Source: Deltaproteobacteria bacterium (GTDB taxonomy: Bacteria > Desulfobacterota > WTBG01 > CAIYCZ01 > CAIRTM01). Taken from it: DNA of 34,043 nt. The DNA lies in assembly GCA_024276465.1 (NCBI GenBank), contig JAJRXD010000019.1, forward strand, positions 1 through 34,043. Reading direction: 5' to 3'. This document shows, one piece after another, positions 23,336 through 29,423 of this stretch; position 1 is the stretch's first letter, and each line of letters starts with the position of its first letter. The position numbers and the translations under genes are program-made. The notes under the pieces were generated by a model, which was given only the letters and a program-made list of their open reading frames with translations, made no database searches and was not told where the DNA came from.

Positions 23336-24589
23336 ATGAAACATGCTGCCTCAAAACCGTTAATTGTGATATCTGCAATAATTTTTTCGATTTTTCTTTT
23401 TTCATGCTCAAAAAAGGAAGAAGCAAAAAACATATTACCCCCGGGCGGACCTTACCCTGCAATCCTTATATCCCAGGCCCAGTTTCTGTATGAGAACAGA
23501 GATGGAAAAAAACTGGCAAAACCAGGTCCTGCAATCATGACCATCATGCAGAAAACCCGGCAGGGGTGGGTGGATTCAGTAATAGAAGACCCGCAAAGCA
23601 ATGTGTTTCATAAAGCATTGATTTTAAAAGACGGAAACAGTAAAAAGATACTGACTATTGGTGCCATGAAGGCTGAGCTGAAACTCTGGGAGTTCAAAGA
23701 TAATGCCTGGCATCAAACATTGCTGTGGAATCCTGTTTTTGGCGGCAAATGGGACAGGCTGAGAGATGTTGAGACAGGGGATGTGACAGGTGATGGTAAA
23801 GCCGATATTGTTATTGCAACCCATGATCAGGGTGTTGTTGCAGTAGCAGTTAAACAGGACCGGGGCTTGGACGTTAAGGAGATAGATCGCGAGCAGGGTA
23901 TTTTTGTGCATGAGGTTGAGATAGGGGATATTGACGGGGATGGGCTTAATGAATTTTTTGTAACACCAAGCAAGCCCAACAAGGCAAAGGGGGGGCCTCA
24001 ACCAGGAAAAATCGTAATGTACAAATGGACAGGAACGGACTTTAATAAAACAGTTGTTGATAATCTTCAAAAGACACATGCAAAGGAGATACTGGCTTTT
24101 GATATTGATGGCAGGGGAACATCCACCCTTTTTTCGGTGGTTGAAGCTGAAACCAGAACAGAAGACGGCAATACGGTTCGAGTGGAACCTGTTAAGATTA
24201 AAGAGTACACGTTTAAAAATGGAAAAATAACAGGTGATGTTATTGCAACGCTTGATGACTTCCAGTGCCGTTTTTTAACAGCTGGAGATGTGGATGGAGA
24301 TGGCAGGGCAGAACTTGTAGCAGCAGCCATGAAGTCAGGTTCATGGCTGCTGAAAAGGCACAACAGCACCTGGAATCTATCTTTGATAGATGCGGACTCT
24401 TCCGGTTATGAACATGCAACATGCCTTGCTGATGTTGATGGGGATGGAGTCATGGAAATTTATGTTGCATCAGATGATCAACAGGAGCTTCGCATGTATA
24501 AATGGAACGGGAACAGCTTTTCCAGAAACATAATTGCAGCTATTCCTGACAACAGGATCACATGGAATTTGACAGCAGGGAAATTTTAA
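23336..24589 (+). CDS. Lipoprotein with FG-GAP/VCBS repeats
   Basis: 417 residues from ATG 23336, with AAGGA 5 bases upstream. The signal peptide ends in a lipobox LFSC with C24, followed by SKKEE, so this should be an anchored lipoprotein. The body is a beta-propeller of FG-GAP/VCBS repeats. Calcium-loop motifs of the D-x-D/N-G-D-G type appear repeatedly: GDVTGDGKAD, GDIDGDGLNE, FDIDGRGTST, GDVDGDGRAE and ADVDGDGVME (about residues 148-375). Such propellers are common in surface adhesion or recognition proteins. Its place directly after pilC suggests a link to the pilus or to surface contact, which is inference. The likely location is the outer membrane or periplasmic face. The ends converge with the pyrD remnant. 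Confidence 0.88.
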   Translation: MKHAASKPLIVISAIIFSIFLFSCSKKEEAKNILPPGGPYPAILISQAQFLYENRDGKKLAKPGPAIMTIMQKTRQGWVDSVIEDPQSNVFHKALILKDGNSKKILTIGAMKAELKLWEFKDNAWHQTLLWNPVFGGKWDRLRDVETGDVTGDGKADIVIATHDQGVVAVAVKQDRGLDVKEIDREQGIFVHEVEIGDIDGDGLNEFFVTPSKPNKAKGGPQPGKIVMYKWTGTDFNKTVVDNLQKTHAKEILAFDIDGRGTSTLFSVVEAETRTEDGNTVRVEPVKIKEYTFKNGKITGDVIATLDDFQCRFLTAGDVDGDGRAELVAAAMKSGSWLLKRHNSTWNLSLIDADSSGYEHATCLADVDGDGVMEIYVASDDQQELRMYKWNGNSFSRNIIAAIPDNRITWNLTAGKF

Positions 24590-24617
24590 CCCCGGAGCTA
24601 CTGTAATAACCGGGTTT
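24588..24617. terminator. Possible bidirectional terminator
   Basis: AACCCCGG (24588-24595) can pair with CCGGGTT (24610-24616) around a 14-base loop, with one bulged C. It lies exactly in the 26-base gap between the convergent lipoprotein gene and the pyrD remnant. T-rich runs on each side are short, so the activity is uncertain. Confidence 0.35.
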
Positions 24618-25572
24618 AATGTGCGTTGCCAATGAAATCCGATATTTTTTTGTTGTGTGTTTCAACGTACTTTTTAAGTCCCCTGTAAATTTTTTTAAAA
24701 ATATCCGGAGAAATAAACCAGGCTGTTCCAATACCAACTGCTGTTGCCCCTGCCATTATATATTCAAGTGCATCATGCCAGGTGGAAATTCCGCCAATGC
24801 CAATTATGGGCACTTTTCCTTTTCTGCACTCTGGAATATTCTTAAAACATTCATACACCATAAAGACACCAACAGGCTTAATGGCAGGGCCCGAAAGGCC
24901 GCCTGATTTATTGCCAAGAAACGGTTTGCCTGTATCTATATCTATTGCCATTCCCCGCAGAGTGTTAATCATGGAGATGGCATCAGTTCCACCGGCAATT
25001 GCAGCACGTGCCGGAAGACAGATGTCTGTGACATTAGGAGAGAGTTTGGTGATTACTACCATGCTGCTGCTAACCTGTTTTTTAACGGTTCTGACTATCT
25101 GTTCAACCAGCCCTGGGTCTGAGCCAAAGACCGCACCACCCTTCTTGATGTTGGGGCAGGACACATTAACTTCAATTCCTGAAATTAATTTCATTGAATC
25201 GTTATTGCTCAGATAAAACGCAACTTCTCCAAACTCTCTGACCGTACTGGCAGAAATATTTACTATTACAGGCAAACGAAAATCCTTCAGTGGCGGAAGG
25301 TCTTTTTGAACAAACGACCTGACCCCGCTGTTTTGAAGGCCAATAGAGTTAATAATTCCTGAAGCAGAACGTATTTAAACAATTCTGGGTTCAGGATTGC
25401 CTTTTTCAGGTCTTAATGTAACACCCTTGGTTACAAAAGCACCAAGGGAAGACAGAACACCGGATTTTTTTTGAATTCTTTTTATCTCGTCACTGTGTCC
25501 TGAGGTTCCCGATGCTGTTACAAGGGGACTGCTTAACTCCAAGCCACTGATTTTAACGCTGAGCTGATTCAT
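24616..25572 (-). pseudogene. pyrD: Dihydroorotate dehydrogenase (class 1B) with in-frame TAA
   Basis: The reading frame from ATG 25572 (MNQLSVKISGLELSSPL) to the stop at 24616 is one continuous frame of about 318 codons, except for a TAA at 25377-25375. The first part (65 residues) ends GNPEPRIV; the frame resumes after TAA with IRSASGIINSIGLQN. Related enzymes read R-x-x-E-T-x-x-G here, so the stop takes the place of the conserved Glu and two extra codons follow. Beyond it the active-site features are intact: NVSCPN (the catalytic-cysteine segment), KLSPNVTD, NTLRGMAID, GGLSGPAIKP and the FMN-phosphate-binding IGIGGISTW...GATAVGIGTA. The start overlaps the pyrK end by 20 bases, as in functional pyrK-pyrD pairs. 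It is either a young pseudogene, a sequencing error or a split protein; a TTG at 25275 could restart the second part. Confidence 0.85.
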
Positions 25573-27292
25573 ATTTGCTCCAATCAATATCCGCTGCATC
25601 AAAAAGGGGTCCATCTGCACAGACACGCGAGTATTGTTTCTGATTGCCCCTTTTGGTGTGACAAACACATGACATGCAAACCCCTGTTCCACATGCCATC
25701 CGTTTTTCCAAAAGCACCTTCATTGGCAGTTTATATTTTAAAGTAATTTTTTTCAATGCCCCGGTCATGTCCGCAGGTCCACAAGTGATAACCAGAATCC
25801 CTCTCTTTTTTTTCAAAGCTTTCAGGTATGACCCGTACTGTTCAGTAACAACGCCCTGATAAAAATTTGTTTCCGGCAGGTCAGGTATCAAATTGTGTTC
25901 AGCCTTGCCGGTTTCACAGGCAACGTAGATGTCACCTCCTTTAAGCCCGATGTTTTTCAGGTCATCAATATAAATATGAGAATTTATCTGCTTTCCTGAA
26001 TCAGGGGCATTCTTCAAAAGTAATGTTTTAAAATCAAAAATTCCGATAAAAGCTTTTATTTTAAAAGAATAGTATCTCAGAACCTGCCCGAAAAACAGAA
26101 GCGGAGCCATTCCGACTCCACCGCCAATCAGGTGAACCTCTTCAATACCCTCTGACCGCAGGACATGCAGATCTGTTGTCTGACCAAGGGGGCCGAACAT
26201 CTGAAAAGTATCATTCTTCCTTAAGCCTTTCAGCTCATTTGTCCCAACCCCATCTTCCACCACTTTATAAAAAATATCAAATTCATCTGGAAAAACCCTG
26301 TGGGCTGTGATGGCAAAATCATAGGGCAGCCTGATATTTTTAAAATATGCCTCTCTGAAATATTTATAAAATGCATTGTAAAGGCTGAATGGCCTTTTCA
26401 GATAAGAAACCGGTTTAAGGATTTTACGTGAGCTGCACCTGTTTAGTCCGGACAAAGAGTTTAAAACCGGAGAAGCGTACATCTGTTTTCTTTCAGATAT
26501 TTTCAGGGTATCAAGCATAACAAATTGACCGGGAACTACCGTCTGAAGGCCTTTTGTTGAAAATTTTATTTTAAAATGCTTCGGGGTTTTGTCCTCCCCC
26601 ACAGGACGATTTTCTATAACCTTTGCGTTAAAAACACTGATTGTTTTATCTGTTGAAGAATCCCGGTTTTTTCTGCCTGCATTACCTGAACAGCTGATTT
26701 TTTTTATCAGTTCGTCAAAACAGACAAAAAAACCACGCTGCCATTTGTCAGCCCAGCCAACACGCCGGCATTTATTCAAAAGCGAGGAGGAAGGGGTGAT
26801 TAAAAAACAGATGTTTTCAAATCTGCAGTCATCAAACTTCCTGACCCTCTCTGAAATTTCCCTGAAAATTTTTTCCCTGCTTTTATTATAAAAACAAAAT
26901 ATTAAATTAATGCCCCTGTTATTTTTTATCTCAAAATCAGATCCCCTGGCAAGGCCACAGGGTTTTGGAAGCCTTCTGGTATCAGAAAATTTTTCAAGTT
27001 CTGACTCGTCAAAAAGACAGGGGTCTGCTGAGACAATTTTAAACCTGTTTTTTGATAAAATTGACATGATTAAGGTTAAACACAACCTGTGATATGCATT
27101 CCGGTTTGATTGCCCGTTTTTTATCCATTTTTCAAATTCTGACTCAGAGCACCGGGAAAGCAGGGGGTGCATCCTGGATGGGGTCAGTCTGTGTGCCTGC
27201 TCCAGAACCTTCTTCGGACTGGTACTGTTTGCCAGAAAACAGGCAGCTTTTATATGGAATTTTAATTCATTTAAGTCGTTGTTTTTTTTCAT
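25553..27292 (-). CDS. pyrK: PyrK-like dihydroorotate dehydrogenase electron-transfer subunit with long N-terminal extension
   Basis: 579 residues from ATG 27292, against about 230-290 for typical PyrK. Residues from about 218 match PyrK, a FAD and [2Fe-2S] protein that passes electrons from PyrD to NAD+. Seen: PGQFVML at 254-260, the flavin motif R300-P-F-S, the NAD-binding GGGVGMAPL (390-398), ITCGPADM, and the cluster ligands C534, C539, C542 and C558 in a C-x4-C-x2-C-x15-C pattern. Two insertions, near 263-297 and 306-325, lie around the flavin motif. The first 215 residues contain ten cysteines, are rich in charged residues and match no family I recognise. The start is preceded by CCGGAAAA. 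It follows cysE after 48 bases and overlaps the damaged pyrD by 20 bases. Confidence 0.85.
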   Translation of the reverse strand: MKKNNDLNELKFHIKAACFLANSTSPKKVLEQAHRLTPSRMHPLLSRCSESEFEKWIKNGQSNRNAYHRLCLTLIMSILSKNRFKIVSADPCLFDESELEKFSDTRRLPKPCGLARGSDFEIKNNRGINLIFCFYNKSREKIFREISERVRKFDDCRFENICFLITPSSSLLNKCRRVGWADKWQRGFFVCFDELIKKISCSGNAGRKNRDSSTDKTISVFNAKVIENRPVGEDKTPKHFKIKFSTKGLQTVVPGQFVMLDTLKISERKQMYASPVLNSLSGLNRCSSRKILKPVSYLKRPFSLYNAFYKYFREAYFKNIRLPYDFAITAHRVFPDEFDIFYKVVEDGVGTNELKGLRKNDTFQMFGPLGQTTDLHVLRSEGIEEVHLIGGGVGMAPLLFFGQVLRYYSFKIKAFIGIFDFKTLLLKNAPDSGKQINSHIYIDDLKNIGLKGGDIYVACETGKAEHNLIPDLPETNFYQGVVTEQYGSYLKALKKKRGILVITCGPADMTGALKKITLKYKLPMKVLLEKRMACGTGVCMSCVCHTKRGNQKQYSRVCADGPLFDAADIDWSKYESAQR

Positions 27293-27340
27293 ATTTTCCG
27301 GGGCGCAGTATGATAGAAAATTATAGAAGAGAATTTGAGG

Positions 27341-28255
27341 TTACAGGCTATCGTTCTTTTCTTTATACACAAGCTTTGGAGGCTGATGAACAATGCTTGT
27401 GTTGGGGGGCACGGATTCAAGAAGCCAGACATTTCCACCAATTGTAGAGTTTTTTCCAACAATGGTTTCACCCCCTAAAATTGTTGCTCCTGCATAAATT
27501 ATCACATTATCCTCAATTGTCGGATGCCGTTTGCCCCCCTTTATTATATTTCCATCAGAGTCTTTCTTAAAGCTGAGTGCACCAAGGGTTACACCCTGGT
27601 ACAGCCTTACGTTCTTTCCTATTATTGTTGTTTCCCCTATAACAACCCCTGTTCCGTGATCAATAAAAAAATTATCTCCAATGTGTGCACCGGGATGAAT
27701 GTCCACGCCTGTTGCACGGTGTGCAAATTCCGTCATTATTCTCGGGAGAAACGGTATTTCAAGATGATACAGCTCATGGGCAATTCTGTAAATGGCAACT
27801 GCAAAAAGCCCGGGATAACTGACTATTATTTCATCAAAGCTGGCGGCAGCTGGATCTCCCTCGTATGCTGCACTTACATCCCCGTTCAATTTAATCCTGA
27901 CAAATGGAATTCTGGAAAGAAAAAAGATGGTTTTATGTGCTGCAATTGAGGTTGGGGAATCCTTGCTGCTTTCTGAGCTGACGCCGGGAGAGGTTTGCAG
28001 GCTTTTAGCAATTTCCCGGGAAAGATTATGGTAAACAGTTACGATCTTCTCCCAGATATAAAGATTGATTTCACTTCGACTTATCTCCTGTTTTTCATAA
28101 TAACCCGGAAAGATAATGTTTATAATTTCAAGAACTATTTCCTCTACAGCAGCACGGGAGGGCAGGTTTGGGCCTTCGATATGATTTATTCCCCTGTCAG
28201 TTTTATAGGAGTCAAGAATCTGATTGATTATTTCTGGAAGTTTATTGAGCGGCAT
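27341..28255 (-). CDS. cysE: Serine O-acetyltransferase, EpsC type
   Basis: 304 residues from ATG 28255 with GGGAAG 6 bases upstream. A TTG at 28273 would extend it further into nifS. It acetylates serine with acetyl-CoA to give O-acetylserine for cysteine synthesis. Seen: an N-terminal helical region, then the left-handed beta-helix of hexapeptide repeats (VDIHPGAHIGDNFFIDHG, VVIGETTIIGKNVRLYQGVT, then DNVIIYAGATILGG and KNSTIGGNVWLL). The catalytic histidines lie in DIHPGA and IDHGTG. The length and domain order fit the EpsC subgroup. The 14-base overlap with nifS and the place in a nifU-nifS run suggest that it supplies cysteine to the NifS desulfurase. O-acetylserine sulfhydrylase is not seen nearby. 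Confidence 0.93.
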   Translation of the reverse strand: MPLNKLPEIINQILDSYKTDRGINHIEGPNLPSRAAVEEIVLEIINIIFPGYYEKQEISRSEINLYIWEKIVTVYHNLSREIAKSLQTSPGVSSESSKDSPTSIAAHKTIFFLSRIPFVRIKLNGDVSAAYEGDPAAASFDEIIVSYPGLFAVAIYRIAHELYHLEIPFLPRIMTEFAHRATGVDIHPGAHIGDNFFIDHGTGVVIGETTIIGKNVRLYQGVTLGALSFKKDSDGNIIKGGKRHPTIEDNVIIYAGATILGGETIVGKNSTIGGNVWLLESVPPNTSIVHQPPKLVYKEKNDSL

Positions 28256-29423
28256 ACAGTTCTTCCCTGCCAAAAGGTGATATTTCTCTTAACTGTTTTT
28301 CTATATGGAGCATTTTTTCTATAATGCAATCAACGTCATCTTCTGTATTGTACCTGCTGAGACTGAACCGGACAGAGCCATGAACCCTCGTGAATGGAAC
28401 TCCCATAGCCCTCAAAACATGGGACGGCTCCAGGGAACCTGACGTGCACGCTGAGCCGGATGATGCAGCAATGCCAGCCTCACTCAACAACATGAGTATT
28501 GACTCACCCTCTATATATTTAAAACTGATATTTGTTGTGTTGGGCAGGCGGTTCTGTGTATCCCCGTTTACTGATGCTTCAATGGCCTTTTCGACAAGCT
28601 CCTTTTCCAGCCTGTCACGCAATGTTTTAACACGGATGTTTTCAATGCTCAAATGCTTTAAGGCTATTTCACAGGCTCTTCCAAACCCGACAATATACGG
28701 AACATTTTCCGTGCCTGCACGCCTGCCCTCTTCCTGATGCCCGCCCATTATAAAGGGAACAAAGTGTGTTCCCTTTCGAATGTATAGTGCCCCTATTCCT
28801 TTTGGGGCATGAAACTTGTGCCCGGAAATTGAAAGAAGGTCAACCGGGGTTTTATTCATATCAATGCTGACCTTGCCAGTGGCCTGAACCGCATCACAAT
28901 GAAAAACAGCTCCCCTGCTTTTAACAATTTTTGCTATATCATCAACAGGAAAGATAACACCTGTTTCATTGTTAGCCCACATTATTGAGACAAGGACTGT
29001 GTCCTTGTCCATCTTTTCTGTCAGCTCATCCATGTCAATTTGTCCCCTGCTGTCAACTGAAAGCTCTGTTACCCTGTATCCGTTTTTACTTAAATACTGA
29101 CAGACATTTTTTACAGCAGGGTGCTCAACCCGTGTTGTAATAATGTGCTTTTTATCCGGATGAGCAGAAAGCACGCCCCGGATTGCAGCATTATCACTCT
29201 CTGTTCCACATGATGTAAAAACAATTTCTGAGGGGTCGGCATTTATGAGGGATGCTGCCTGTTCACGGGCACGGTCAATAAATTTTTTTACCTGCCCTCC
29301 GAACAGATGCATACTGGAAGGATTTCCATAAAGGTCTGAAAAAAAAGGCTGCATCTCTTCCACCACTTCAGGGGCAACCATTGTAGTTGCATTGTTGTCA
29401 GTGTAAATATTTTTTGTGCCCAC
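28242..29423 (-). CDS. nifS: Cysteine desulfurase NifS/IscS
   Basis: 393 residues starting at GTG 29423, with AGGAGG 8 bases upstream inside the nifU coding end. It is a PLP enzyme that removes sulfur from cysteine for Fe-S cluster assembly. Seen: YTDNNATT at 7-14, the PLP-stacking VEHPAV (99-104), DAVQATGK (177-184), the Schiff-base lysine K203 in SISGHKFHAPKG, and the persulfide cysteine C326 in SSGSACTSGSLEPSHVL. The active-site loop is the group I (IscS/NifS) type. It lies between nifU (2-base gap) and cysE (14-base overlap), so translation of the three is probably coupled. No nitrogenase gene is in the window, so a housekeeping role is more likely. Confidence 0.96.
   Translation of the reverse strand: MGTKNIYTDNNATTMVAPEVVEEMQPFFSDLYGNPSSMHLFGGQVKKFIDRAREQAASLINADPSEIVFTSCGTESDNAAIRGVLSAHPDKKHIITTRVEHPAVKNVCQYLSKNGYRVTELSVDSRGQIDMDELTEKMDKDTVLVSIMWANNETGVIFPVDDIAKIVKSRGAVFHCDAVQATGKVSIDMNKTPVDLLSISGHKFHAPKGIGALYIRKGTHFVPFIMGGHQEEGRRAGTENVPYIVGFGRACEIALKHLSIENIRVKTLRDRLEKELVEKAIEASVNGDTQNRLPNTTNISFKYIEGESILMLLSEAGIAASSGSACTSGSLEPSHVLRAMGVPFTRVHGSVRFSLSRYNTEDDVDCIIEKMLHIEKQLREISPFGREELYAAQ

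Follow-up and report, generated by a model that had tools for sequence, protein, structure and literature searches.

An in-frame TAA in a divergent class 1B pyrD of a draft deltaproteobacterial genome

The analyzed window, a stretch of 34,043 nucleotides from a draft deltaproteobacterial genome, holds a frame for the catalytic subunit of dihydroorotate dehydrogenase (DHODH), PyrD, that is broken by one stop codon. Has the bacterium lost the enzyme, is the stop bypassed in some way, or does the consensus misrepresent the living population?

The interrupted frame and its divergent clade

The frame runs from an ATG at 25572 to a terminal TAA at 24616 with no stop besides the internal one, which agrees with the preliminary description of a single in-frame TAA in a frame otherwise intact for about 318 codons. 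The features are as follows.

24616..25572, minus strand: frame of a divergent class 1B PyrD (DHODH catalytic subunit), 318 codons, one internal TAA included
25375..25377, minus strand: internal TAA, in a column that is Glu in 68 of the 71 other PyrDs and in all five other clade members
25363..25374, minus strand: codons ATA CGT TCT GCT directly 3' of the internal TAA, containing two codons beyond canonical PyrD that are common to the relative G006
24616..25275, minus strand: ORF from a TTG 3' of the internal TAA, 219 aa, without the first third of the barrel
25553..27292, minus strand: PyrK-like electron-transfer subunit, 579 aa, overlapping the start of pyrD by 20 bases

A profile search of the genome gives a PF01180 (DHO_dh) match that spans the internal TAA (E = 4.9e-68). 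The name pyrD, used from the outset, holds for the family, but the gene is a divergent paralogue and differs from the copy in the rest of the order. In a tree of 77 PyrDs, a long branch (length 0.8; SH-aLRT 100) separates the window sequence and those of G006, L013, G281, G221, and G243 from the rest; within this group, the window sequence is sister to that of G006 (support 96). The clade is found in 5 of the 395 genomes searched in the phylum, 341 of which have some PyrD match at 1e-20. Judged by its sequence, the gene is a rare divergent class 1B paralogue (six sequences), unlike the usual pyrD of the order.

Class 1B membership calls for an uninterrupted PyrD frame, broken here by the TAA at 25375-25377, and for an adjacent PyrK with an FAD/NAD module and [2Fe-2S] cysteines, which the window has. 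The family cut-offs (TIGR01037, 270 bits; NF005574, 269 bits) are exceeded by the intact relatives L014 and L013 (317 and 308.5 bits, 341 and 345.2 bits); the C-terminal piece of the window protein alone falls below them (235.3 and 253 bits).

The nearest relative, G006, belongs to the same family of genomes (72% identity), and its protein is that of locus L014 (Thermodesulfobacteriota isolate PL23a_bin.71). The uninterrupted pyrD of G006 reads RIVEIRSASGIINSIG at the site, and the window protein reads RIV*IRSASGIINSIG; the codons are GTT GAA ATA CGT TCT GCA TCT GGC in G006 and GTT TAA ATA CGT TCT GCT TCA GGA in the window. The four other clade members have RI(V/A)ETR(T/A)G, with the Arg codon in the same place. 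The internal stop is absent from G006, whose GAA differs from the TAA by one base. Two extra codons had been noticed at the site before, and the window protein does have two residues more than canonical PyrD there; their proposed origin, a six-base insertion of TACGTT, is rejected, as the same two codons are present in the uninterrupted G006 gene. They occur in two genera and are, therefore, older than the stop. On this comparison, the extra codons are inherited, and the interruption itself is one base change.

The rest of the gene shows no decay. The window PyrD keeps all 33 columns that are invariant in the 71 other PyrDs, and where conservation in that set reaches 90% or more it has no private deviation besides the internal stop, with the proviso for both counts that several of the 71 are near-copies. 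The window PyrD retains C139, K49, N75, N136, N141, K176, and N203, which we take to be the catalytic Cys and the conserved Lys and Asn residues of the pocket. Terminal branches in the tree are 0.21 for the window and 0.18 for its sister G006. The Nei–Gojobori dN/dS between these two is 0.136 over all codons, 0.073 before the stop, and 0.144 after it, the values being rough since dS is near saturation (saturated before the stop). All 23 other Pfam-matched genes of the 34-kb window have open frames. A pseudogene would be recognized by relaxed constraint and further lesions; observed are kept invariant columns, a normal branch length, and no other lesion. The sequence thus gives no sign of long relaxed constraint, and would still be compatible with a very young pseudogene.

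The PyrK-like partner and its methyltransferase

The PyrK-like partner keeps the FAD/NAD module and the [2Fe-2S] cysteines (PF10418, 59.5 bits) and misses the NCBIfam PyrK equivalog cut-offs (best 91.8 of 219 bits). It has an extra N-terminal middle domain with no Pfam match, for which a comparison with the PDB returns chance matches only (best E = 0.042); the fold prediction of the 579-aa protein, made from three sequences, has a pLDDT of 42.7 and is not relied on.

In G006, G281, and L013 (1056, 1043, and 1011 aa), the partner additionally carries an N-terminal DNA-methyltransferase-like part, which is missing in the window, G221, and G243 (579, 527, and 527 aa). No remnant of it is detected in the window, L122, or L123 at tblastn E < 1. 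The DPPY motif of this part is kept in G006 and G281 and reads DPPG in L013. The fusion loci, in which a PyrK-like reductase with the methyltransferase-like part and the middle domain is followed by the divergent PyrD, lie at L014 612-3782, L121 3533-6664, and L013 753-3788. Searches of plasmids and phages return 14 and 1 records, respectively, that match parts of the fusion, none of the 15 covering 80% of it, and viral contigs give no match. Among the titles and abstracts listed for the open-licence literature, none describes a pyrD broken in this way in a metagenome-assembled genome or a methyltransferase–PyrK fusion.

Several further features of these loci were observed. G006 and G281, and only these, have a small third gene 3' of pyrD (L014 4728-5237, 169 aa; L121 7607-8098, 163 aa); the two are similar by eye and have no Pfam or PADLOC match. 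The G281 cassette lies beside genes resembling Cas3g and Cas8g and a short piece of an AAA ATPase (L121 107-2309). In G243 (L122 5191-6774), the first [2Fe-2S] cysteine of the odd PyrK is replaced by Gly (EKRMAGGIGVC), the residue being Cys in the close relative G221; this may be a further lesion of a single residue, and the odd copy is the sole PyrD match of G243. In the window, a hexapeptide transferase gene (27341-28273) lies upstream of the PyrK-like gene (25553-27292), its TAA standing 16 codons before the ATG of the latter in the same frame with no stop between them, which is probably due to chance.

Other dihydroorotate dehydrogenases and pyrimidine genes of the genome

The preliminary description had pointed to a second pyrD or uracil uptake as what loss of the gene would demand, and this is the right question; the assembly yields neither another DHODH copy nor a PF00860 permease. 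The window genome (4.1 Mb in 181 contigs, estimated to be 95% complete with 4.4% contamination) has no second PF01180 match, although the missing part might contain another DHODH. Elsewhere in the order, 9 of the 10 other genomes have a long canonical PyrD match, and the remaining one (G001) has a fragment at a contig end. The canonical context is, in order, rapZ, (EIIA), rimI, pyrK, pyrD, ispG, proS, and relA, with some genes missing in some genomes; the names in this run are assigned by resemblance to known proteins and are presumably correct. In the window genome, contig C143 ends with rapZ and EIIA residues 1-46, and contig C35 opens at EIIA residue 69, some 22 residues being missing between them, and continues with the remainder of that gene and with rimI, which 213 bases separate from ispG. 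No canonical pyrK–pyrD stands between rimI and ispG. An assembly gap hiding the pair is rejected for this syntenic place, EIIA being split across the two contigs and rimI and ispG lying only 213 bases apart.

At 1e-20, two PyrD matches are found in each of G006 and G281, the second one of G006 being read, from its sequence, as a probable canonical PyrD (L011), and one, the odd copy, in each of the window genome, G221, and G243. The three genomes whose partner lacks the methyltransferase part are thus those without another PyrD match. This coupling arose at least twice on the tree and is to be treated as a lead, since the assemblies of G221 and G243 reach 85% and 78% completeness and the two genomes are close relatives, leaving few independent cases.

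The window genome has PyrR, PyrE, and CarB, all three named on resemblance that we take to be sufficient, and a PyrB truncated at a contig end. No dedicated uracil phosphoribosyltransferase (UPRTase) is detected in this genome, the matches to the UPRTase family being PyrR and PyrE only. A PF00860 uracil permease is likewise not found, against 11 of 14 control genomes with one, in a transporter search confined to that family. The interrupted copy, then, appears to be the only DHODH of the genome. These four pathway genes are present, and no second DHODH, permease, or UPRTase is found; loss of the gene would, therefore, be costly.

Interpretation of the stop

Normally, PyrD (an FMN barrel) would work with the overlapping PyrK-like partner (FAD, [2Fe-2S]) in the class 1B manner, converting dihydroorotate to orotate and handing the electrons on to NAD, an activity that we infer by analogy. 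Translation of a TAA-containing message would end after 65 residues, before the substrate-binding loop and the catalytic cysteine are reached, and hence yield no enzyme. Class 1B subunits mutually support stability or cofactor binding (PMC8097209), so that a truncated PyrD should disable the pair.

Two ways of decoding the TAA as sense were considered. Reassignment is rejected: TAA is an ordinary terminator, ending 12 of the 23 Pfam-supported window genes. Programmed readthrough is unlikely, the stop being conserved in none of the five other clade members. The internal TAA does lie in the loop of a hairpin (25351-25399, minus strand; z = -2.64 over 111 nt, -14.7 kcal/mol over 49 nt) to which bases peculiar to the window contribute on either side. 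Of 303 windows along this gene, however, 13 are as stable, and the hairpin is not formed in relatives; as a recoding signal it is given little weight. No Rfam family is found in 24500-28500.

On balance, the TAA probably reflects one nonsense change of very recent date in this divergent PyrD, apparently the only one of the genome, and is likelier to be present in part of the population, or in the draft consensus only, than to be fixed. Base errors in a consensus are rare a priori, which weighs against this reading; even so, an error or a minor allele is favoured slightly over fixed loss, and we infer a working copy in the living population. The change may instead be real and fixed, with DHODH lost and pyrimidines, orotate, or nucleosides supplied by the community, or the reaction carried out by an unseen enzyme. 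The consensus is TAA, the canonical pair is gone as well, and G243, likewise left with the odd copy only, has Gly for the first [2Fe-2S] Cys of its partner, another possible lesion; but pyrR, pyrB, pyrE, and carB are retained, neither a PF00860 permease nor a dedicated UPRTase is detected in the genome, and the rest of the gene is free of decay, so we regard fixed loss as possible rather than probable. It is improbable that the odd pair is an accessory one, tied, e.g., to a DNA-modifying system, which is not a DHODH and decays as dispensable after loss of the methyltransferase. G006 and G281 do hold the pair in addition to another PyrD match and with the methyltransferase on the partner, and the G281 cassette stands beside Cas3g- and Cas8g-like genes; however, catalytic and substrate residues are kept in the window, and the identity of the three methyltransferase-less genomes with the three lacking another PyrD match fits a housekeeping takeover.

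Readthrough and a split protein, both raised in the preliminary description, gain no positive support. Low-level full-length enzyme made by a near-cognate or suppressor tRNA would suit a frame and a constraint that continue past the stop, and a stop placed in a hairpin loop; but the hairpin is confined to the window genome and no more stable than those 13 other stretches, all five relatives have Glu and so give no hint of a maintained signal, TAA serves as a regular terminator in the window, and UAA is generally the least leaky stop. We consider this unlikely, even with constrained in-frame stops reported as widespread in bacteria (PMC7918605). A split enzyme, assembled from two separately made fragments, is hardly credible: its sole restart candidate 3' of the stop is a TTG 34 codons on, preceded by a purine-rich stretch and opening the 219-aa ORF, but this ORF begins inside the barrel and loses the regions of the conserved K49 and N75, and none of the five relatives is split.

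Taken alone, the stop is an unremarkable nonsense lesion of a draft genome. Should the consensus be correct, this uncultured bacterium would rely on others for orotate or pyrimidines, although the de novo pathway is otherwise present. Of greater interest is the apparent replacement of a housekeeping enzyme by a methyltransferase-linked paralogue whose methyltransferase part is absent in the window. We tentatively outline a scenario, itself doubtful, in which a divergent lineage travelling with a reductase-fused methyltransferase dropped the latter at least twice and replaced the lost ordinary pair as the only DHODH, the sole enzyme of the window genome now being expressed across the UAA or being lost. 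The association of a DHODH-type flavoenzyme with a DNA methyltransferase, and the way it is distributed relative to the housekeeping pair, may point to a function of PyrK–PyrD beyond nucleotide synthesis.

Three known systems are comparable. In-frame stops under purifying selection are reported to be widespread in bacteria (PMC7918605), the authors assuming that the vast majority are not functional recoding; the window resembles these cases in that a gene with a single stop is otherwise selectively constrained, and differs in that no further copy is found of this enzyme, which growth normally requires, and in that the stop is known from one consensus. The partner N-terminus resembles Type II / DUF1156-like DNA methyltransferases (PADLOC MTase_II, 8.9e-27 in G006 and 5e-22 in G281), but is fused to a PyrK-like reductase and is missing from the window gene. 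The closest counterpart of the pair is the Lactococcus lactis class 1B PyrDB–PyrK (1EP1-1EP3): the L014 PyrD barrel has a sequence match to 1ep1_A (E = 2e-59) and a fold match to 1ep3_A (37% identity), and the L014 partner matches PyrK (1ep1_B), with a similar FAD/NAD module and [2Fe-2S] domain. Unlike the L. lactis enzyme, the clade is separate and deep, its partner is extended by large N-terminal parts, two additional residues stand at the site in the window and G006, and the window copy carries the internal TAA.
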